From an uncultured Clostridia bacterium (GTDB taxonomy: Bacteria > Bacillota > Clostridia > Oscillospirales > Ruminococcaceae), in contig CANQCL010000015.1 in NCBI GenBank assembly GCA_947589215.1, positions 1-54,334 of the forward strand: a DNA stretch of 54,334 nt, read 5' to 3'. Below are positions 3,452-21,693 of this stretch, in pieces. Both the position numbers and the translations under genes were made by a program. Position 1 is the first letter of the stretch. The number at the start of each line of letters is the position of its first letter. A model generated the notes under the pieces. It did no database searches and was not told the origin of the DNA. It was given only the letters and a program-made list of their open reading frames with translations.

Positions 3452-3566
3452 GACCGATAATAGATAAGAAGCTTAGATAGTGAATAATAGTTCCCGTCAC
3501 CTCGACCATAAAAATTCGTAATGCTTCGAGGTAATCGAGAAGTATTGCGAATTTTTATTATCGGTC
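3452..3566. other. Nested stem-loop between two att copies
   Basis: An outer 11-bp perfect inverted repeat (GACCGATAATA at 3452-3462 with TATTATCGGTC at 3556-3566) encloses att copy 1. An inner 19-bp stem (3509-3527 with 3539-3557) is fully paired if two G-U pairs are allowed, around an 11-base loop. The wobble pairs are compatible with selection on an RNA structure. The two stems share two bases at 3556-3557, so they would compete or stack. I know no RNA family that fits. Confidence 0.5.
3493..3508 (+). repeat. tRNA-3'-end-like att repeat, copy 1
   Basis: The 16-mer CCCGTCACCTCGACCA is identical to the sites at 3597 and 21764. It reads as the T-stem 3' strand, acceptor 3' strand, discriminator A and encoded CCA of a tRNA with acceptor CGAGGTG/CACCTCG, a C1-G72 pair suggestive of tRNA-Pro. 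The T-loop and the rest of the tRNA are absent here, so this is an element boundary and not a tRNA gene. It probably marks the right end of the upstream prophage or of a third small insertion. Confidence 0.7.
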
Positions 3567-3596
3567 GTAACGCAGACTTGAAACCACAGTCAACGT

Positions 3597-3612
3597 CCCG
3601 TCACCTCGACCA
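3597..3612 (+). repeat. tRNA-3'-end-like att repeat, copy 2 (left end of the integrative element)
   Basis: Same 16-mer as at 3493 and 21764, 104 bases downstream of copy 1. It is followed at once by a strong terminator hairpin, as after a tRNA gene. Together with 21764-21779 it bounds an 18.2-kb segment that contains integrase and excisionase genes. Confidence 0.7.
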
Positions 3613-3621
3613 GCAATGATT

Positions 3622-13484: not shown

Positions 13485-14669
13485 ATGGCTTCACTAACAA
13501 CAATAGGCACAGGTGCTACAAAGCAATACAAGCTGACATGGGATATTAATACGACCGACGGAACAAGAAAACGTCGGTCGAAAACCTTCCCTGTTGGTAC
13601 ACCGTTTTCTTTGATAAAGTCGTACAAATTGAAAGTAGAGCAGGAGTATCTTCTAGGCGAACTACAGCTTGTAGAGAACACAAAAACCGTATCAGATATG
13701 ATTACGATTTATCTTGAAACATATACTAAGTTTATATCTCCAAGCACATTGAAAGGCTATAAATCAATCATATATAATCATAAGGATAAGAAAGGTATTC
13801 TTGATTATTGGGGAGATACATATCTTCACAAAATAACCGTTGATTCTGCACAGAAGTATGTAAATTTCCTTGTTGACTGTGGACTGGCTCCAAAGACAGT
13901 AAGAAGCTATGTTAATATGATGTCAATACTTTTTCAGCTTGCAGACGAGTTGTCATATATCAGGAGAGGATACAACCCATTTTCACATTTAAGAATGCCA
14001 CCAAAACAAATCAAACCTATTGAGGTATTCACAGAAAATGAAATACGAACACTTATACACAAGGCAAAAGAAACGGAAAATGAAATGGTATTACTTATAC
14101 TTATCTTAGGTGCATTATGCGGTTTAAGACGAGGAGAAATGGCAGGCTTAAAATATGAAAACATCTCACTTGATGATCTATATCCTGAGATACATATAAC
14201 AGAGAATGTAATTAAAGTAGACAGGATAATATATGAGAAATCACCTAAAACAAGTGCAGGTGTACGCTCAATTCCATTAGGAACAGAAACTGTTGAGATT
14301 TTGAAGAAGGCAAAAGCAAATTATGAGAAACGCAAAGCTGAAAATCCAGATTGGGTTGATTCAGGTCATGTCCTATATCAGGAAGATAGCGGATTAGCCA
14401 TGCTACCAAAAGTGATTGGCAGGAGATATAAAAAGTTTTTGAATGACACCGACATTCCATATCGTAACTTACATATATTAAGGCATACATTTGCAAGTCT
14501 TTTAGCTAAGAACGGAGCAAGCCCAAAGGATCTACAATCATTACTCGGACATTCTGATTCATATACGAGTATTCAGATATATACTCACAGCTACAAGGAT
14601 GTACAGAGAAAGAATACTACGCTTCTTGATAATAAGATATTTAATGTTAGTAACAGCAAAACAGGATAG
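13485..14669 (+). CDS. int: Tyrosine recombinase (integrase)
   Basis: 394 residues, ATG at 13485 with AGGGGG upstream. Residues 1-60 form an arm-type DNA-binding domain, 68-165 the SAM-like core-binding domain and about 180-385 the catalytic domain. Catalytic residues are visible: R215 (GLRRGE), K255 region (SPKTSAG), H330 and R333 (HILRH), H356 (LLGHSD) and Y366 (IYTH). All are intact, so the enzyme is probably active. It should recombine the tRNA 3'-end sites at 3597 and 21764. Its last codons (encoding NSKTG) form the start of repeat R1, and homologous integrase tails recur at 17041 and 21563. Confidence 0.92.
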   Translation: MASLTTIGTGATKQYKLTWDINTTDGTRKRRSKTFPVGTPFSLIKSYKLKVEQEYLLGELQLVENTKTVSDMITIYLETYTKFISPSTLKGYKSIIYNHKDKKGILDYWGDTYLHKITVDSAQKYVNFLVDCGLAPKTVRSYVNMMSILFQLADELSYIRRGYNPFSHLRMPPKQIKPIEVFTENEIRTLIHKAKETENEMVLLILILGALCGLRRGEMAGLKYENISLDDLYPEIHITENVIKVDRIIYEKSPKTSAGVRSIPLGTETVEILKKAKANYEKRKAENPDWVDSGHVLYQEDSGLAMLPKVIGRRYKKFLNDTDIPYRNLHILRHTFASLLAKNGASPKDLQSLLGHSDSYTSIQIYTHSYKDVQRKNTTLLDNKIFNVSNSKTG

Positions 14670-14781
14670 AAAAATCCCTAAGGTGAGAAATTCATCTTAG
14701 GGATAATTTTTTTCGTAAGAACGAATAAAAAGTAGAAGTTTTATTTAAAAATTAAATGTTTATACTTTTGTAATGACACAA
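14655..14781 (+). repeat. Integrase-tail repeat R1
   Basis: Starts in the final codons of the integrase (AGCAAAACAGG, then the stop), runs through its terminator and a stretch with TTATTTAAAAA and AAATGTTTATACTTTT, and ends at GACACAA. The same order of blocks recurs in R2 (17041-17255) and, with an internal deletion of about 60 bases, in R3 (21563-21693). R1 is the copy attached to the live integrase. Its end supplies the ATG-ACA-CAA start of the methyltransferase remnant. Confidence 0.75.
14674..14713 (+). terminator. Integrase terminator (in R1)
   Basis: ATCCCTAAGGTGA pairs with TCATCTTAGGGAT (one wobble), followed by seven T. The same hairpin is found in R2 at 17095-17133 and in R3 at about 21587-21616, where the T-run is replaced by A. 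Confidence 0.85.
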
Positions 14782-15066
14782 AACTCTGTTAACGGATTAA
14801 GTAATGATGCCAAATGGCGTAGAAACTGGTCACCATATTTTCCAAGGAATACTATGCTTTGTTATTCTCAAGAGGGAGATATGGTACTTGATCAATTCGT
14901 AGGTGAAACTCTTTTTGAATCAAAGTTATTAAATAGAAATATAGTCGGCGTAGATGATAATGACGAAGCACTATTACGTTGGTGCGAAAAAGTAAGTTTT
15001 GAATATGAGTCTGATAAAGGTAAGGAATCTATAAAGGTGATATTTTTGAATAATATCAGAGATTAA
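14773..15066 (+). pseudogene. C-terminal remnant of a DNA adenine methyltransferase
   Basis: 97 codons. The segment SNDAKWRRNWSPYFPRN…MVLDQFVG…LNRNIVGVD matches the C-terminal part of beta-class N6-adenine or N4-cytosine methyltransferases, where DQFVGSGTTL is the AdoMet-binding motif I. Here the GSGTT core is replaced by GETLF, so AdoMet binding is probably lost, and no DPPY/NPPY catalytic motif remains. The ATG and first three codons come from repeat R1, so the remnant was cut at the repeat. Dead gene, possibly the leftover of an earlier restriction system. Confidence 0.75.
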
Positions 15067-15131: not shown

Positions 15132-15980
15132 TTAACTGTCTGTTATAGAAAACTTCGGATTAGTAAGAACAATTTCTACAATATCAGAGAAACAAGATAT
15201 AACGTTATATTTGGTAATCGGAGCAGCACCTGGATGGCCTGAATGGCATCGCATATCATAGCAGCCTACAAGCCGAGTTCTTTCATTAGAATCAATCAGC
15301 TGCATACCCTCAATAACCCATAATACATCACTATCAAATACCATTCGCAATTCGCTCAATGAATGGATATTGTATTCCTTGGCAAATCGCTTAAATCTAC
15401 CAGTAGTTTGTAGTTTCATCTGCGTTGATGTAGCATTAAAAATATCAAACCCTTTATTCTCAATCACTTTATGTATACGATCAATACCAGCGCACCATAG
15501 CAGCACGGTTGCCGCTTTCAAGTAACCACTTTCCCAGCATCCTAACGCCTCTTTTAAATACTCATTTTCATCAGTATCTGATATTTTTTCTAAAAGCGCT
15601 TGGACGTCATCATTAAACTCATAATGATTTTCTTCAGGAGACATTGCATCTGTCTGCAAAAAGATAACCACATTATCGTTAAAATCAATAGAAACACAAT
15701 CGATTTGCTTTATATAAGAAGCTCTCCGACTAGCTTTATCAGACAGCTTCAAAATTTCTCTAAAAGCCTGATTGTATTTATCAACTATTTCTTTAGAAAT
15801 GCCACAAGATATCAAATTTTTTGATAACAGCTCAAACCATTTGCTGGCCAACTCCGCATATGCTTGACGTTCTTCTTTGCTGTTGACATTTATAGAGTCA
15901 GCCTTTTTTAATAATGCTTTTGCAGCTTTTATGTCATTCCAAAGTGATTTTGCATTTTGCGTCAGCTCTTGTATGGTCAT
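15132..15980 (-). CDS. HEPN-type putative RNase of a two-gene defence operon
   Basis: 282 residues. The N-terminal 100 residues are helical. A conserved-looking core from 125 (CWESGYLKAATVLLWCAGIDRI) is followed at 244-249 by R-C-H-S-G-H, the R-x4-H signature of HEPN ribonucleases, then PGAAPI. This layout (a paired helix SGYYRAAVVLLWCA… and a late RxxxxHP) is that of HEPN domains of the DUF4145/Apea type found in defence loci. Gap of two bases to the upstream partner gene, which has a CIRCE operator. A toxin or abortive-infection nuclease held by its partner is the favoured reading. RNase activity is inferred from the motif only. Confidence 0.6.
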   Translation of the reverse strand: MTIQELTQNAKSLWNDIKAAKALLKKADSINVNSKEERQAYAELASKWFELLSKNLISCGISKEIVDKYNQAFREILKLSDKASRRASYIKQIDCVSIDFNDNVVIFLQTDAMSPEENHYEFNDDVQALLEKISDTDENEYLKEALGCWESGYLKAATVLLWCAGIDRIHKVIENKGFDIFNATSTQMKLQTTGRFKRFAKEYNIHSLSELRMVFDSDVLWVIEGMQLIDSNERTRLVGCYDMRCHSGHPGAAPITKYNVISCFSDIVEIVLTNPKFSITDS

Positions 15981-15982
15981 TT

Positions 15983-16633
15983 TTACTCACCCTTGGCCAA
16001 ATCGAGCAAAACCTTTGCCAACTCTTTTTTTCCTTCAGCAGATAATACGATACTTAAATTCTTGTCATATTTTTCAGGCCAATTTTCCCATAAGGAATTA
16101 TTGTTTTTAAAATATGAAGTAAAATTGGCGGAATTATAGCATTTCATTGCATTGCACCGTGCCCTTACGTCTTCACAATTGAATGACATTTCACCGTTGC
16201 TATCAGAAAACGCATTTTCAAAAGCTGTAAGTAAAGCAATGCGTATTTGACACTCTGACATATTTGTGCTATTCAGCGAATCATACAGCGGCTTTAACTT
16301 TTCGTCCTCTTTATAGTATAGATAGTTGATTTGTTCATTGGATATGTTATTAGAGGTTAAAAAGCGCTGGACCTTAACATGAAATTCTTTCATAGAGATT
16401 TCTGTATTAAAATCTCTATTTTCTTCACTATCATTTTCATTTTGTACATCCACAACAGATATCTTTGCGTCAGCCACAGGAGTAACTGCTTTAGTTTCTA
16501 AAATGTCATTCTGACCGTTATCCGATAAATAATTCTCCAAAAGTAGTTCGAAACACTTTTCTTGTAACGACTCAGGACATTGCTTTACAATCTCAATAAT
16601 ATCCTTAATTTCGGTTTTAAGACTTTGATACAT
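15983..16633 (-). CDS. Partner protein of the HEPN gene (216 aa)
   Basis: ATG at 16633, chosen because AAGGAG lies nine bases upstream and the CIRCE site and promoter lie just beyond. Longer readings would run through the operator. The N-terminal 40 residues are helical (IKDIIEIVKQCPESLQEKCFELL), the middle is acidic and flexible, and the C-terminal 130 residues look like a compact helical domain ending SAEGKKELAKVLLDLAKGE. No family is recognised. As first gene of the operon, two bases from the HEPN gene, it may be the antitoxin, a sensor or an adaptor. The C-terminal part could be a winged-helix fold. Confidence 0.6.
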   Translation of the reverse strand: MYQSLKTEIKDIIEIVKQCPESLQEKCFELLLENYLSDNGQNDILETKAVTPVADAKISVVDVQNENDSEENRDFNTEISMKEFHVKVQRFLTSNNISNEQINYLYYKEDEKLKPLYDSLNSTNMSECQIRIALLTAFENAFSDSNGEMSFNCEDVRARCNAMKCYNSANFTSYFKNNNSLWENWPEKYDKNLSIVLSAEGKKELAKVLLDLAKGE

Positions 16634-16653
16634 TTTATGCTCTCCTTTATGTT

Positions 16654-16680
16654 TTAGCGCTCGTCTTAACCGAGTGCTAA
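16654..16680 (-). promoter_or_regulatory. CIRCE operator (HrcA site) of the HEPN operon
   Basis: TTAGCGCTC, nine spacer bases, GAGTGCTAA. The CIRCE consensus is TTAGCACTC-N9-GAGTGCTAA, so 17 of 18 conserved positions match and the spacer is exactly nine. It lies 12 bases downstream of the -10 box, in the 5' untranslated region, where HrcA-controlled groE and dnaK operons carry it. This implies repression by the host HrcA and release on heat or protein-folding stress. Confidence 0.88.
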
Positions 16681-16691
16681 TCTTAACTTGA

Positions 16692-16720
16692 AGTATAGCA
16701 TATATGGTATCAGTTGTCAA
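16692..16720 (-). promoter_or_regulatory. Sigma-A promoter of the HEPN operon
   Basis: On the minus strand TTGACA (16720-16715) and TATACT (16697-16692) with a 17-base spacer, a near-perfect housekeeping promoter. Transcription should start just before the CIRCE element. Confidence 0.85.
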
Positions 16721-17040: not shown

Positions 17041-17255
17041 GCTCCTGAGACAAGGAAATTTTTAATGATAGCGATACCAAAACAGGTTAGAAAAATCCCT
17101 AAGGTGAAAACTTCATCTTAGGGATAATTTTTCATATGAATGGCTAAGGCCAATCGTTAAAAAGTATAATCATTATTTAAAAATGAAATGTTTATACTTT
17201 TCCTGTGACACAACAACGTCACTATCAAATATTAAACCAGTAAGTTTGGCACCAC
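17041..17255 (+). repeat. Integrase-tail repeat R2
   Basis: Begins with codons that align to the integrase C-terminus: read as LL-(1-base shift)-DKEIFNDSDTKTG-stop against LLDNKIFNVSNSKTG-stop of the live enzyme. This is followed by the same terminator hairpin (17095-17133), the TTATTTAAAAATGAAATGTTTATACTTTT block and GTGACACAAC. Homology to R3 then continues through ACGTCACTATCAA to GTTTGGCACCAC. The truncated ATPase gene ends inside it. Confidence 0.75.
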
Positions 17256-17791
17256 AATGCGATTGCCGTTAAATTTGTATTTTTACCTCTCAACTTCTGT
17301 TCTCTTGTAATCCAACCGTCTTTGCTCCTTAGTCGTTCTTTTATTTTACTAATCTTATAGTTCGGTGAAGAGATATTTTTACTATCTTCAAAACTATTTG
17401 TCTTTTGTTCCTCTGCATCTCTTAATGCCATAATGTCATTAATTTGATCTTTATGTTTTTGGATTTTACTATTTAGTTCATTTTGTTCACCAAAAAGAAT
17501 TACAGCATCTAATCCTTCACTCTTGACATCTACGTTTCTTTTGATGAAATCTTCATTAAATACAGCAATGTTACTTTCAGGAATTAAAAGTGTCGTGTTA
17601 TCACGACTTATTGTTTCTGTTGATAAATCAGATTCACTATTTTGGATAGCTTTAGATAATGTGCTCTTGCCGCTTCCGTTCTTTCCATATATTATACTTA
17701 TACGAGATTTCTCTTTATTAAAAAACATAAGAGATGTTTTAGCTGAAAAGCAACGTCCTTTTATTCTAATTCCTCTTAATTTTTCAATCAT
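17225..17791 (-). pseudogene. Truncated AAA ATPase (RloC/PrrC-like N-terminus)
   Basis: 188 residues with Walker A GKNGSGKST at 36-44 and the opening MIEKLRGIRIKG, typical of SMC/AAA_13-type ATPases such as the N-terminal half of RloC/PrrC anticodon nucleases. Those proteins exceed 500 residues and carry signature, Walker B and nuclease parts, which are missing here. The last 11 residues and stop come from repeat R2, so the gene was cut at the repeat boundary near 17255. It lies 24 bases behind the restriction gene, like PrrC beside a type I system, which suggests an intact RM-plus-nuclease ancestor. Probably non-functional. Confidence 0.75.
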
Positions 17792-17815: not shown

Positions 17816-19540
17816 TCAAATGATTATCTCGTCATTACACTCAAATTTTGCAAAAACGTCCCCATAACTGAGCCTACCAGATTTTATTTCTTCTGCAAGT
17901 AGCAAGAGATTTACCGAGTTGATAGCAGCACCGTTAATATGCGACCTACGGCTGATATTTTCAAGTCTGTCCTTAAAACCACCTGTAAATTCCCCAGAAA
18001 CAAAAGCAAAATTAAATTTATTCACATCATCATTGAAAATCGTCCACCATTCATTAGGATTAATAGATTTGTCACGTTTCTGATTTTCTTCAATATAGCG
18101 GAGCATTTCATCAGCCTGTTTAATTGGCAAAGAATATCCTTTGCTATAAGCTTTGTTGTCAATTATTAATCCGTTTTTATCGTAGAATACACATACATCA
18201 GGCTTACGTGCATCACCCAATCTTGAACCTTTGAACTCCAATTCTCCCGTTAAAAGGTCTGCTGTTTGTAATTCGTATTCTCTGTCTGCCTTGCCATCAA
18301 ATCCGAGATCGATTAATACAAGATACTTGTGATTGATGTGAGAAAGTTTTCTGCGTATTTTGTCCTTCAGTAAAGAAAGATCAGACTTTGATGCATCTAT
18401 TGACTTAATACTGTCGGGAATATCAAGTTCGATAATTCTATCCATTATCTTATATTTGTTCTCATTCCTATTTACATTGATACCAATGTTTATCAAACCT
18501 TGTATGTCATCGGAAATGGTTCCTTTGTCCTCAGTCATACCATTAGCCTGTAAATGAGAGATTATTTCCTCTAAACTGCGATATGTAGAAGATAAATACT
18601 TTATTAGATATGTTCTACGATTACGAAGATAATCTCTATCAGACGGTTTGGTTGATAGCATATCCCACATAACTCTTTTGTCTATACGTTTGAATTTTGA
18701 AGTTCCTCTTGCGTATTTCAACACCTTTTTACCCTCAAGAGTGATTTGATATGATTGGGTAATAGTATCAGTATACGTCATATATCCTAAATCAGCAGTT
18801 ACGCTCTTTGATACCTGCATTACCCATTTGACACTTTTAAGCCAAGCACAAATTGTACGGACATATTTATCAGATGTTCCCTCTGTATCGGATAACAGCT
18901 TATTTCTTTCCTCAGAGCTAACAGCAGAACTAAGCCCTTGCAAAATAAGATTCTGAGGAATAGAGGTAAATCCAGCTTCACCTACGAATCCGATCTGACA
19001 GCCAATCTCAAACTTTGTCATAATGTTACCGTTTTCAAGCAGACTTAAAACACGACAGACAGGAGGATATGAAAGAAATGCTTCGGTCAATATATCCTTT
19101 TCTTCTTTGCTGTCATCTGCTGAAACAGCATATCTATATCCCAGCTCACTAATACTGCAAGTATCTTTCTCATGATTATAATTAAGAAAACCCATACTTA
19201 CCGCCCAACGCAAAAACGAATCAGCAGGCCAGTCGCCTTGATATTCCTTTCTTTGTCCAGGAAGAACAGCTTGAATTATGCCTGAACAAGGAGAATTGGT
19301 GCGAGTATATCCTTTGGGAGTACCTTTCCCTTTAAGAAGCATGTATGGAATATTCATCTTGTTCGAGCTAAGATGCTTTATCATATCGTCTTTTTGATAT
19401 TCTTCTGAGATAAGTCTTGGTATCTTATCTTTTCTTAAAAGTTTATTTATATCTGAATCAGGAACAAACACTCTGACAACATTTTTTAGATTTGATATAG
19501 TGTATGCTTCTTGTACCCAACCAAATGTTCTTTCTGCCAT
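17816..19540 (-). CDS. AlwI-family type IIS restriction endonuclease
   Basis: 574 residues. ATG at 19540 is chosen because TTGGAGGACATC places GGAGG five bases upstream. Sequence landmarks (ERTFGWVQEAYTISNLK at the N-terminus, GDWPADSFLRWAVSMGFL, and near the C-terminus VLIDLGFDGKAD…ELQTADLL and KPDVCVFYDKNGLIIDNKAY) match the AlwI-like family. The C-terminal part has a PD-(D/E)XK-like arrangement (KPDV…IIDNKAY). AlwI cuts near the asymmetric GGATC site. Two adenine methyltransferases precede it in the operon, as needed to protect both strands of an asymmetric site. Specificity is inferred from family only. Confidence 0.85.
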   Translation of the reverse strand: MAERTFGWVQEAYTISNLKNVVRVFVPDSDINKLLRKDKIPRLISEEYQKDDMIKHLSSNKMNIPYMLLKGKGTPKGYTRTNSPCSGIIQAVLPGQRKEYQGDWPADSFLRWAVSMGFLNYNHEKDTCSISELGYRYAVSADDSKEEKDILTEAFLSYPPVCRVLSLLENGNIMTKFEIGCQIGFVGEAGFTSIPQNLILQGLSSAVSSEERNKLLSDTEGTSDKYVRTICAWLKSVKWVMQVSKSVTADLGYMTYTDTITQSYQITLEGKKVLKYARGTSKFKRIDKRVMWDMLSTKPSDRDYLRNRRTYLIKYLSSTYRSLEEIISHLQANGMTEDKGTISDDIQGLINIGINVNRNENKYKIMDRIIELDIPDSIKSIDASKSDLSLLKDKIRRKLSHINHKYLVLIDLGFDGKADREYELQTADLLTGELEFKGSRLGDARKPDVCVFYDKNGLIIDNKAYSKGYSLPIKQADEMLRYIEENQKRDKSINPNEWWTIFNDDVNKFNFAFVSGEFTGGFKDRLENISRRSHINGAAINSVNLLLLAEEIKSGRLSYGDVFAKFECNDEIII

Positions 19541-19552
19541 GATGTCCTCCAA

Positions 19553-20401
19553 TCAGTAGTTTGTTATCAGAACTTCTTTAGTAACATTTTCACGGTTATT
19601 TGTATGATAGTTACAGTTATTGTAATTGAAATTGATATTATGTATACTGTATCCGTTGTTTGATATCCACTCTATTATAGCATCGTTTGTAAGTCCCTTA
19701 TGCTCTATAACGTTGGATAGTGCAAAATTCACTCCACGCTCTGAGAGTTCAGTCAGTAATTTAAGCAGTTCCAGATCATCATTCTCCGTCCAACCTCTAA
19801 ATCCCCGCTTACCATCATTATAACTTCCGCAAGTAAGGAGATAGGGAGGGTCAGCGTATATAAAATCGCCTGTTTTGAGAATATCATAGTCAAAGTCATA
19901 GAAATCAACTGCGGAGAAATGTATATCATCTATCTGCTGTTTGAACAAGATAAGATTATTACGCATAATCTCGTTGAAACTGCTTCTATTTCTGCCAAAT
20001 GGATTATTATAATCGTGACTGCTGTTAAATCTAAACTGATAATTGAAGCTGAAACACATAAGAACATATAGATCCAAAGGATTCTTTGTTTGATTATAGT
20101 AGCCACGAAAAGCCTTATATCCACTTTCATTGGTTTTGCTAAGTTGCCATTTTTCTATTGTGCTGTCTATATATTCAAGGATATAATCAACGTCATATTT
20201 TTGAAACTCTTTAAGAATTCCTATAACATGGTAGTTAATGTCATTAGCATATACATTATTTGCATCAGTATTTATACTAACATCACAACCGCCACAAAAT
20301 AAGTCAACGAAAGTATCTATATTTTCTGGAAAAAATTCTTGAATAGAGTTTATAATCCTATACTTATTTCCTATATAATTAAAAGGTGCTTTAACAATCA
20401 T
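19553..20401 (-). CDS. DNA adenine methyltransferase 1 of the AlwI-like system (Dam/DpnII class)
   Basis: 282 residues, ATG preceded by AAGGAGG. Order of motifs is that of alpha-class (D12) N6-adenine methyltransferases: motif X (FNYIGNKYR, 7-15), motif I (FVDLFCGGCDV, 31-41) and the catalytic motif IV DPPY at 184-187. Length equals that of Dam-like enzymes. Starts one base after the stop of the second methyltransferase and ends 12 bases before the endonuclease start. Expected to methylate one strand of the target. All motifs are intact. Confidence 0.9.
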   Translation of the reverse strand: MIVKAPFNYIGNKYRIINSIQEFFPENIDTFVDLFCGGCDVSINTDANNVYANDINYHVIGILKEFQKYDVDYILEYIDSTIEKWQLSKTNESGYKAFRGYYNQTKNPLDLYVLMCFSFNYQFRFNSSHDYNNPFGRNRSSFNEIMRNNLILFKQQIDDIHFSAVDFYDFDYDILKTGDFIYADPPYLLTCGSYNDGKRGFRGWTENDDLELLKLLTELSERGVNFALSNVIEHKGLTNDAIIEWISNNGYSIHNINFNYNNCNYHTNNRENVTKEVLITNY

Positions 20402-20402
20402 A

Positions 20403-21428
20403 TTAATGCCTCCTTAAAAGGTATAACTGTTCTTTTAGTCCCTTTTTATTGTTTGAGATTTTGTTCTTGTATCTTCTGTAATCATACTCAAAAAGTTTAA
20501 AGCTATTGTCGACAGCATATCGTCTGCAAATATCCGAAAGTTCATCTGTTGATAGCAGAGCTTCATTATTGTAGCTTATCAGAATATATCTGCTTTGACA
20601 GTCTCTTATCATAGTTTCAAATGCAGAAGCTACAGTGTTTTTTTTGCAAAACACCGACTTCTGATTACCATACGTACGCATACCTGTTACACCGTATATA
20701 ATAGGGTAATCATATTTTGCAATAGTTTCAAGAATATGATAATTCGGAAGATACTCTCTTGAATTATAGGGGGGATCAGCGTACAAAAGATCACATTTCA
20801 TTGATAAAAGCTCTGTAAAGTCTTTGTTATAACTTTCGTTTTTCTTCCCATTATTTATAATAACAGGCTCGGTCAATTCAAGTTTTTTATATGTACGTTC
20901 ATCCCAGAATTTAAGATAAGCAGCATAAACACCTGTTATGTTTGAAACAAAAGGAACGGCACTTATCAGTGAGGATAGAAGATAGAAATATTCGTTATCA
21001 TCAATCAGTTGTTCTGTGTGCCACTTTTCAATTGTAAGTCTTATTATATCAATTTTTAAAGCGTTTTCAGGTTGGAAGTACATTCGGTTACATTCTCCAA
21101 CAGGACTGTAGTTGTTATATATAAAGCATTCATCGGTTTGAAAATCTGTATCTGAAATTGTTAACTTATTCAGATATTTTATAGGGTCTGTTATTCCTAA
21201 AGTTTTGAAAGTCGGTTTTCTATTCAATGCGATTACTGACCTTGACATAACATAACTGAAATATAGAAAATCATTACTGATTGTTCTGTATCCTTTTGAT
21301 TTAAAATTGCTTGAAACTACTCCAGAACCTGCGAACAAATCAAGCACCAATGATACATTCGGAATCTCAGCAGATATGACATTATTTATATTTTCTAATA
21401 AAAGACCTTTTCCTCCGATGTATCGCAT
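20403..21428 (-). CDS. DNA adenine methyltransferase 2 of the AlwI-like system (D12 class)
   Basis: 341 residues. ATG at 21428, with GGGAGAG four bases upstream. Upstream in-frame codons run across the promoter. Motif X (MRYIGGKGLL, 1-10), motif I (VLDLFAGSG, 28-36) and motif IV DPPY (218-221) are present. It is only distantly similar to the neighbouring methyltransferase and is longer, which fits enzymes that modify the two different strands of an asymmetric site. First gene of the operon, behind a strong promoter, so protection is made before the endonuclease. Confidence 0.88.
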   Translation of the reverse strand: MRYIGGKGLLLENINNVISAEIPNVSLVLDLFAGSGVVSSNFKSKGYRTISNDFLYFSYVMSRSVIALNRKPTFKTLGITDPIKYLNKLTISDTDFQTDECFIYNNYSPVGECNRMYFQPENALKIDIIRLTIEKWHTEQLIDDNEYFYLLSSLISAVPFVSNITGVYAAYLKFWDERTYKKLELTEPVIINNGKKNESYNKDFTELLSMKCDLLYADPPYNSREYLPNYHILETIAKYDYPIIYGVTGMRTYGNQKSVFCKKNTVASAFETMIRDCQSRYILISYNNEALLSTDELSDICRRYAVDNSFKLFEYDYRRYKNKISNNKKGLKEQLYLLRRH

Positions 21429-21468
21429 AATCTCTCCCACTTTAAATAAGTATACTAATCCATTTTTT

Positions 21469-21497
21469 ATTATATCACGAAAGGACAAGAACGTCAA
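21469..21497 (-). promoter_or_regulatory. Promoter of the restriction-modification operon
   Basis: Minus-strand TTGACG (21497-21492) and TATAAT (21474-21469) with a 17-base spacer, 41 bases before the ATG. No controller-protein gene or C-box is seen. Confidence 0.8.
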
Positions 21498-21562: not shown

Positions 21563-21693
21563 GTAATAGCAAAACAGGTTAGAAAAATCCCTAAGGTGAA
21601 AACTCATCTTAGGGATAAAAAATAAAATATTTCTATTTGTCCGATGACACAACATCGTCACTATCAACTCCAACGCTTCATGTTTGACACCAC
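21563..21693 (+). repeat. Integrase-tail repeat R3
   Basis: AATAGCAAAACAGG-T-TAG repeats the NSKTG-stop end of the integrase, followed by the same hairpin, a shortened version of the AT-rich block and the GATGACACAACATCGTCACTATCAA sequence up to GTTTGACACCAC, shared with R2. The att core lies 71 bases further on, so R3 probably preserves the original junction of integrase tail and attachment site. Confidence 0.75.

Follow-up and report, generated by a model that had tools for sequence, protein, structure and literature searches.

CIRCE is the DNA switch that normally turns on bacterial chaperones under stress, and the locus described here raises the question of what such a switch does in front of a two-gene operon on a mobile element. 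The DNA analysed (hereafter the window) is a contig of 54,334 nucleotides that belongs to a 1.98-Mb genome with a completeness of 99.99%. On the minus strand, the sequence reads in order TTGACA, 17 nt, TATACT, 11 nt, CIRCE, 20 nt including AAAGGAGAG, and the ATG of gene 1. The features of the operon are as follows.

16715 to 16720, minus strand: −35 element TTGACA (direct reading; promoter score 11/12)
16692 to 16697, minus strand: −10 element TATACT, 17 nt from the −35 element (direct reading and promoter scoring)
16654 to 16680, no strand assigned: CIRCE operator, the predicted HrcA site (1/18 mismatch; identical in the sister species)
16640 to 16648, minus strand: ribosome-binding site AAAGGAGAG (direct reading)
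15983 to 16633, minus strand: gene 1, 216 aa, start re-assigned, ending 2 nt before gene 2
15132 to 15980, minus strand: gene 2, 282 aa, HEPN-superfamily protein and probable RNase (phrog_27609, hhalign and profile match to Dandelion-HEPN)
15234 to 15251, minus strand: R244-C-H-S-G-H249, the HEPN R-x4-H motif of gene 2 (R244 and H249 invariant in the alignment)

Reading of the sequence identified TTAGCGCTC-N9-GAGTGCTAA at 16654-16680 as a CIRCE operator that deviates from the consensus at one of 18 positions, an inner one. It is the sole CIRCE with up to three mismatches in the whole window, and none of 100 dinucleotide shuffles of the window contained such a site. Sites with no more than one mismatch arise by chance at a rate of 8.0e-10 per position, which over 1.98 Mb amounts to about 0.0016; five were observed in the genome. 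The sequence-only reading had placed the operator directly behind a TTGACA/TATACT promoter with a spacing of 17, and this was borne out. Its location in the leader of a two-gene operon also holds, provided that the start of gene 1 is moved: the open reading frame as called by the program begins at a TTG upstream of the promoter; the ATG at 16633, downstream of AAAGGAGAG, is the plausible start. With this start, CIRCE is a true leader element.

The repressor that would act on this site is available. The same genome encodes HrcA (E 1.1e-50) in an open 362-aa frame without stops, so that the absence of HrcA, which the sequence-only reading had named as fatal to its proposal, was not found. With one mismatch or none allowed, CIRCE stands at five places in the genome: before htpG, groES-groEL, hrcA-grpE, hsp20 and the two-gene operon. 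Raising the limit to two mismatches left the other sites at four, all fronting chaperone-type genes or hrcA; two more places, including one next to the hsp20 site, carry three mismatches, and the backwards control gave one match per strand. The distance of CIRCE behind the −10 element is 4 nt at htpG, 5 nt at hrcA and 16-18 nt at groES, while the hsp20 site has no clear promoter (best score 8/12).

The same picture was obtained in the genus, where CIRCE marks chaperone-type promoters almost exclusively. All 15 genomes carry it, with 61 sites of up to two mismatches versus two in the backwards control, and every one of the 61 was placed (55 contexts outside the own genome and the sister-species operon, and the other 6 loci). 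Fifty-eight are chaperone-type: 53 lie at groES, hrcA, htpG or hsp20, as determined by tblastn with the host's own chaperones, and five precede a ClpB-like gene, by reading of the sequence. The remaining three are the two-gene operon, in its own genome and in that of a sister species (G012), and a CD-NTase/CBASS locus (L150) in the genome G004. Five genomes of the genus (G001, G006, G008, G011 and G014; loci L157, L161, L173, L177 and L199) have no CIRCE at hsp20 and have one before a ClpB-like gene; the HrcA regulon thus varies within the genus.

At the level of the family, the short-leader CIRCE pattern is present in 149 of 217 genomes. Our sample comprised 70 loci among the sites listed, corresponding to 69 distinct sites; 40 had been picked mostly for a purine-rich stretch before the ATG and 30 had not been picked. 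HrcA, HtpG, GroES, ClpB or Hsp20 genes follow 67 of these sites, one fronts a RarA-like gene by reading, and one is unassigned; defence genes stand behind none of the 69. A short-leader CIRCE as the mark of defence operons was therefore rejected, given that 67 of 69 sites serve chaperone-type genes or hrcA. The RarA case, in G034 (L224, the same site as L281), is a perfect CIRCE before a gene that reads as a RarA/MgsA-like AAA ATPase. We judge it very probable that HrcA controls the two-gene operon.

CIRCE sites were also seen in viral DNA, 115 of them in 105 stretches of IMG/VR contigs (L017-L121). By simple blastp with the host references, 35 adjoin a GroES, Hsp20 or HtpG homologue, a count that is too low, since inspection by eye suggests Hsp20-like genes in L076 and L106 as well. 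A good promoter (at least 10/12) lies beside 18 of the 115 sites, versus 2.2% of 2100 random places. The phage-like contigs L041, L052 and L105 have two or three sites each, and in L066, L070 and L087 a longer inverted repeat, located between small genes, encloses the CIRCE.

We then consider what the operon encodes. Gene 2 gave no family over the curated cut-off in Pfam or the other collections searched, and on its own it retrieved nothing at E ≤10 from the profiles of solved structures in the PDB; its AlphaFold model, made without relatives, had a mean pLDDT of 39.1 and was too poor for use. Remote homology was more informative. Residues 134-273 matched phrog_27609 (E 3.3e-6), a Rhizobium plasmid protein was found with 22.7% identity (E 4e-3), and a search of 291 genomes of the class with phrog_27609 recovered, in addition to gene 2, three matches of nearly full length. 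When gene 2 was aligned with four remote relatives, F181, I229, L237, R244 and H249 were the only invariant residues. The RCHSGH sequence that the sequence-only reading had taken as an R-x4-H signature of the second product thus lies at residues 244-249, and the R and H of the HEPN R-x4-6-H pattern are the same in 5/5 sequences. Comparison by hhalign of gene 2 with the four relatives, gene 2 being left out of their profile, yielded E 6.1e-7 and a probability of 92.1. The profile of all five sequences matched Dandelion-HEPN (PDB 9wx2; E 1.3e-4), with the R and H aligned, and Dandelion (PDB 9wxf; E 5.4e-4). Among the relatives, the Rhizobium protein matched PD-T7-3 (E 1.4e-9) and the other three had no convincing match to a defence model; Pfam matches of the relatives to HepT-like, DUF4145 and Abi_C were all below cut-off.

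The match to phrog_27609, the conserved R and H, the Dandelion-HEPN profile match and the hhalign result together support the view that gene 2 encodes a HEPN-domain protein, as had been proposed, and it is likely to be an RNase of this superfamily. The description of the locus as a HEPN-type defence operon is thereby supported in its HEPN half; its defence half stays a proposal, neither gene 1 nor gene 2 matching any family of PADLOC-DB 2.0.0 at E ≤1. On balance we lean towards an immune role of the operon.

Gene 1 appears to be an orphan with no trusted relative. Searches of Pfam, NCBIfam, PHROGs and the PDB returned weak, chance-level matches only, viral contigs and plasmids gave no match, and the AlphaFold model made without relatives (pLDDT 38.9) was unusable. 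Its C-terminal part is possibly a winged helix. No Pfam nucleotidyltransferase matched gene 1 at E ≤1, so the pairing that defines HEPN-MNT toxin-antitoxin systems was not found. A candidate homologue in G253, the only match other than gene 1 itself in 398 genomes of the phylum, has 28% identity with five stops in frame and was taken as a chance match.

The surroundings of the operon are those of a mobile element built from cassettes, of which the main features are listed below.

13485 to 14669, plus strand: tyrosine integrase of the element (Pfam Phage_integrase, E 3.8e-19)
14628 to 14784, plus strand: direct repeat copy 1 (3′ end of the integrase gene and hairpin), one cassette edge
14773 to 15066, plus strand: DNA methylase gene fragment, inside the HEPN cassette (N6_N4_Mtase, E 4.1e-5, below the curated cut-off)
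17049 to 17228, plus strand: direct repeat copy 2, the other cassette edge
17816 to 21497, minus strand: FokI-type restriction-modification module, a separate neighbouring cassette (Pfam, PADLOC; absent at this place in the sister species)

The HEPN operon is flanked by direct repeats similar to the 3′ terminus of the integrase gene (13485-14669), and a third, partial copy is located at 21566-21667. The FokI-type module carries two methylases. Its cassette is missing in G012, where the sequence runs from one repeat copy to the next with a single repeat left (L009 3641-3803). The direct repeats are seen to separate the cargo cassettes, HEPN operon on one side and FokI-type restriction-modification on the other, and short fragments of an AAA_13 ATPase (17225-17791) and of the methylase (14773-15066) sit at the cassette edges, probably as remnants of earlier defence cargo. 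A stretch of 123 bp occurs in the left part of the window (3492-3614) and, with 99% identity, in the sister species (L009 3535-3657), where it lies close to the right end of the element; it is bordered by direct repeats of TCCCGTCACCTCGACCA, and the right end of the window has one such repeat without insert. The integrase itself was recovered only from its own genome in 148 genomes of the family (E ≤1e-80; G012 is not listed in this sample), and viral contigs gave no match.

This context bears on whether the operon is directed against phages at all. The operon might instead be a general stress effector, in which an RNase induced by heat or protein damage reduces translation, thus sparing the chaperones, phage being irrelevant. 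CIRCE does respond to stress, according to the accessible part of PMC3842655, and the two genes are without match to a known defence model. Core stress genes, however, would hardly be expected on an integrase-bearing element, between direct repeats and adjoining a restriction-modification cassette, and the absence of gene 2 from the other 13 genomes of the genus is typical of defence cargo rather than of such genes. We consider this explanation improbable, and prefer a mobile operon with an immune role.

A second copy of the operon, 99.5% identical, is present in the sister species of the same genus (G012; MAG contig CANRJA010000001.1, here L009, from the uncultured Clostridia bacterium isolate Lapin-024). 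The distribution of gene 2 is otherwise narrow. Two matches were obtained in 100 relatives, its own and that of G012, and none in the other 13 genomes of the genus; 398 genomes of the phylum gave its own copy only, and genome_contigs (84,980 species, searched with degenerate peptides, which detects close relatives only) gave one match. Viral contigs and phages had none, and plasmids had remote matches only, one at E ≤0.01 and three at E ≤10. Among the 100 relatives, the 398 phylum genomes and genome_contigs, the two-gene operon had no independent homologue.

Between the two species, the 87-bp leader, measured from the −35 element to the ATG, is unchanged; gene 1 has 2 changes in 651 positions (0.3%), gene 2 has 6 in 849 (0.7%), and the methylase fragment differs by 0.9%. 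Six of the eight coding changes are silent and both frames are open. Divergence is higher in the edges of the cassette and outside it: one repeat differs by 1.3% and the other by 3.5%, the stretch upstream of the leader by 2.3%, the integrase part by 3.8%, and the replication part by 2.6% and 6.0%. With only two near-identical copies at hand, the unchanged leader may be due to recent transfer, and it would fit a recent exchange of the cassette between the species as well as constraint. The sequence-only reading held that homologues lacking CIRCE but keeping their other promoter elements would speak against it; the one close homologue keeps an identical CIRCE, which at 99.5% identity is a weak test. 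An origin of the CIRCE leader of the HEPN operon by copying from elsewhere in the genome is not supported: the leader has no second copy, and its best other match is 28 bases long (E 0.027).

These comparisons also argue against a relic, that is, a HEPN-like protein that is no nuclease or a CIRCE that is decaying and unbound. Such a state would agree with the lack of a curated HEPN model over cut-off and with the one mismatch in the operator, but R and H are the same in all of the very distant relatives aligned, and between the species silent changes dominate (6/8) in two open frames behind an unchanged leader. We regard a relic as very unlikely.

The CBASS locus detected in the genus survey provides a second type of operon behind CIRCE. 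In G004, a perfect CIRCE lies 23 nt before the cyclase ATG that aligns with the start in another genome, G023; two in-frame ATGs are closer. The operon encodes a cyclase (PADLOC Cyclase, E 1.1e-86; Pfam SMODS, 9.5e-10), an E2 protein (PADLOC, 2.1e-94) and an S_4TM effector (4TM; Pfam, 3.5e-14), which by these matches is a CBASS architecture. The promoter and about 800 bp before it resemble the htpG upstream region of the same genome, the main pieces being 96.7% identical over 457 and 89.5% over 401 bases. The two htpG-like promoters sit at opposite ends of a single contig and differ in sequence, so the CBASS promoter is read as an apparent duplicate of the htpG promoter; a mixture of strains in the assembly is another possible source of the two copies.

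G023 is from another genus (75% complete, 380 contigs) and has a perfect CIRCE 22 nt before the cyclase ATG. Its cyclase is 65% identical to that of G004 over 406 aa, and an E2 frame downstream is 56.5% identical over 161 aa. This frame ends after 162 codons (219 aa in G004), about 50 nt before the end of the contig, and no effector was seen there. The operon may not be intact: CBASS is represented in full in G004 (cyclase, E2 and S_4TM) and in part in G023 (cyclase and E2 frame).

We also looked for CIRCE at other cyclase loci. A SMODS search of 297 genomes of the family gave 11 matches in 10 genomes; one locus has a clearly perfect CIRCE (G023), one a CIRCE with two mismatches (G995), and nine have none with up to four mismatches within 2.2-3.5 kb, only about 110 upstream bases being covered for L208. 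The locus L202 has a chance-level match with five mismatches. G995 was not counted as a third CBASS case, as a frame of about 40 codons and a hairpin intervene. At this locus (L203 602-628, L291) the two-mismatch CIRCE stands behind a good promoter and leads the basic frame of about 40 codons, and a hairpin that looks by eye like a terminator separates this frame from a CBASS operon with a 2TM effector and a cyclase. Related CBASS cyclases in two (of 130) class genomes and in five of 43 matching plasmid records had no CIRCE with up to five mismatches. CIRCE is thus not a general feature of CBASS; the loci covered show it with a single CBASS lineage of this family, and it rarely stands in front of defence genes.

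The CBASS operons help to weigh another explanation, in which the element borrows the host HrcA as a leash that keeps a toxic operon low, the response to stress being a by-product without benefit against phage. By consensus the promoter is strong (11/12) and it lies directly before the operator, so that constant repression would cut the cost, and the G004 operon behind its apparently duplicated htpG promoter could have arisen by accident alone. Yet a perfect CIRCE has been kept before cyclases of 65% identity in two genera, which suggests selection, and the HEPN leader has stayed unchanged while the surrounding element diverges, which suggests either selection or recent transfer. A leash of this kind seems to us unlikely, though it is the most credible of the alternatives. 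As evidence from sequence, the regulatory claim is strong, and it rests on two unrelated operon types, HEPN and CBASS.

The reading that we favour, with somewhat more confidence than doubt, is that of a mobile HEPN RNase operon repressed by the host HrcA and released by protein-folding stress. In the unstressed cell, HrcA kept active by free GroEL would occupy the CIRCE between the −10 element and the ribosome-binding site and prevent transcription. Unfolded protein, resulting from heat, from other damage or plausibly from mass synthesis of phage proteins, would occupy the chaperones, and HrcA would lose its activity. The operon would then be induced along with groESL, hrcA-grpE, htpG and hsp20. 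Gene 2 is predicted to cleave RNA through R244 and H249, and growth would be slowed or stopped, which might protect against phage; gene 1, which would be translated first, most likely restrains or triggers gene 2. At the level of sequence, the basis of this mechanism is the operator, the promoter geometry, the HrcA gene, the HEPN motif with its remote homology, the mobile context and the CIRCE-led CBASS of the family. Against it count the lack of a defence model for either protein and of a solved structure matching gene 2 alone, and the rarity of the pairing of CIRCE with defence. That infection itself is sensed through HrcA, the further step taken by the sequence-only reading, is an inference. 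The accessible part of a study of the Campylobacter jejuni phage carrier state (PMC4534711) speaks against simple phage sensing, for the HspR/HrcA heat-shock regulons are repressed there; its authors point to phage-encoded chaperones.

Compared with the class I heat-shock regulon of HrcA and CIRCE, the locus is alike in its operator, in the location of this operator behind the −10 element and in the presence of the HrcA gene, and it differs in that the genes controlled are a mobile HEPN operon and not chaperones. Targets of HrcA other than chaperones have some precedent: in Lactobacillus plantarum, as far as the accessible text of PMC3842655 goes, hrcA mutants showed changes in an integrase gene and in one whose function is unknown, and a predicted cis-element (HrcA or CtsR) lies before a prophage operon. 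A transcriptional repressor over immune genes is likewise known from CapW/BrxR (WYL), RptR and CapK-CapS. In the portions available of the respective papers, these regulators are encoded with or beside their operons (PMC12255303, PMC9122588, PMC13373217; for BrxR, PMC9122589 and PMC9122601), and the signal of CapK-CapS is DNA damage. Measured against these portions, the operon studied here has the operator alone as a local component, whereas the repressor is the chaperone regulator of the host.

PD-T7-3 and Dandelion (PDB 9wx2, 9wxf), names that are database labels, are linked to gene 2 through the match of the Rhizobium relative to the former and of the five-sequence profile to Dandelion-HEPN; gene 2 differs in that its HEPN-like part is C-terminal, behind an N-terminal half peculiar to it, in that a partner gene lies upstream, and in that it has no direct match to either. 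The CBASS operons of G004 (E2, 4TM effector) and G023 (cyclase, E2) are also led by CIRCE, in the same family, and are of a known abortive-infection kind; they have no protein in common with the HEPN operon, and the promoter in G004 is the apparent second copy of that of htpG. The open-licence literature yielded nothing that links HrcA with CBASS, or CIRCE/HrcA with abortive infection, and, judged by titles, nothing relevant on HrcA with HEPN and no CIRCE-phage work on defence. A defence precedent for HrcA/CIRCE control was thus not found in this literature, and such absence is weak evidence.

How suicidal immune systems are kept quiet and then switched on is a current question. One broader answer would be that mobile abortive-infection systems of unrelated kinds (HEPN and CBASS) have in this family been put under the host HrcA by means of CIRCE promoters, one of them an apparently duplicated htpG promoter, so that immunity is armed by the state of the cell's chaperones; we hold the chances of this proposal to be evenly balanced. 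If it is true, a host chaperone repressor ties protein-folding stress to immunity, one switch could answer very different phages, and a phage that brings its own GroES/GroEL could hold systems of this kind in the off state. With the CBASS cases, a link between HrcA and immunity becomes testable in an established kind of system.
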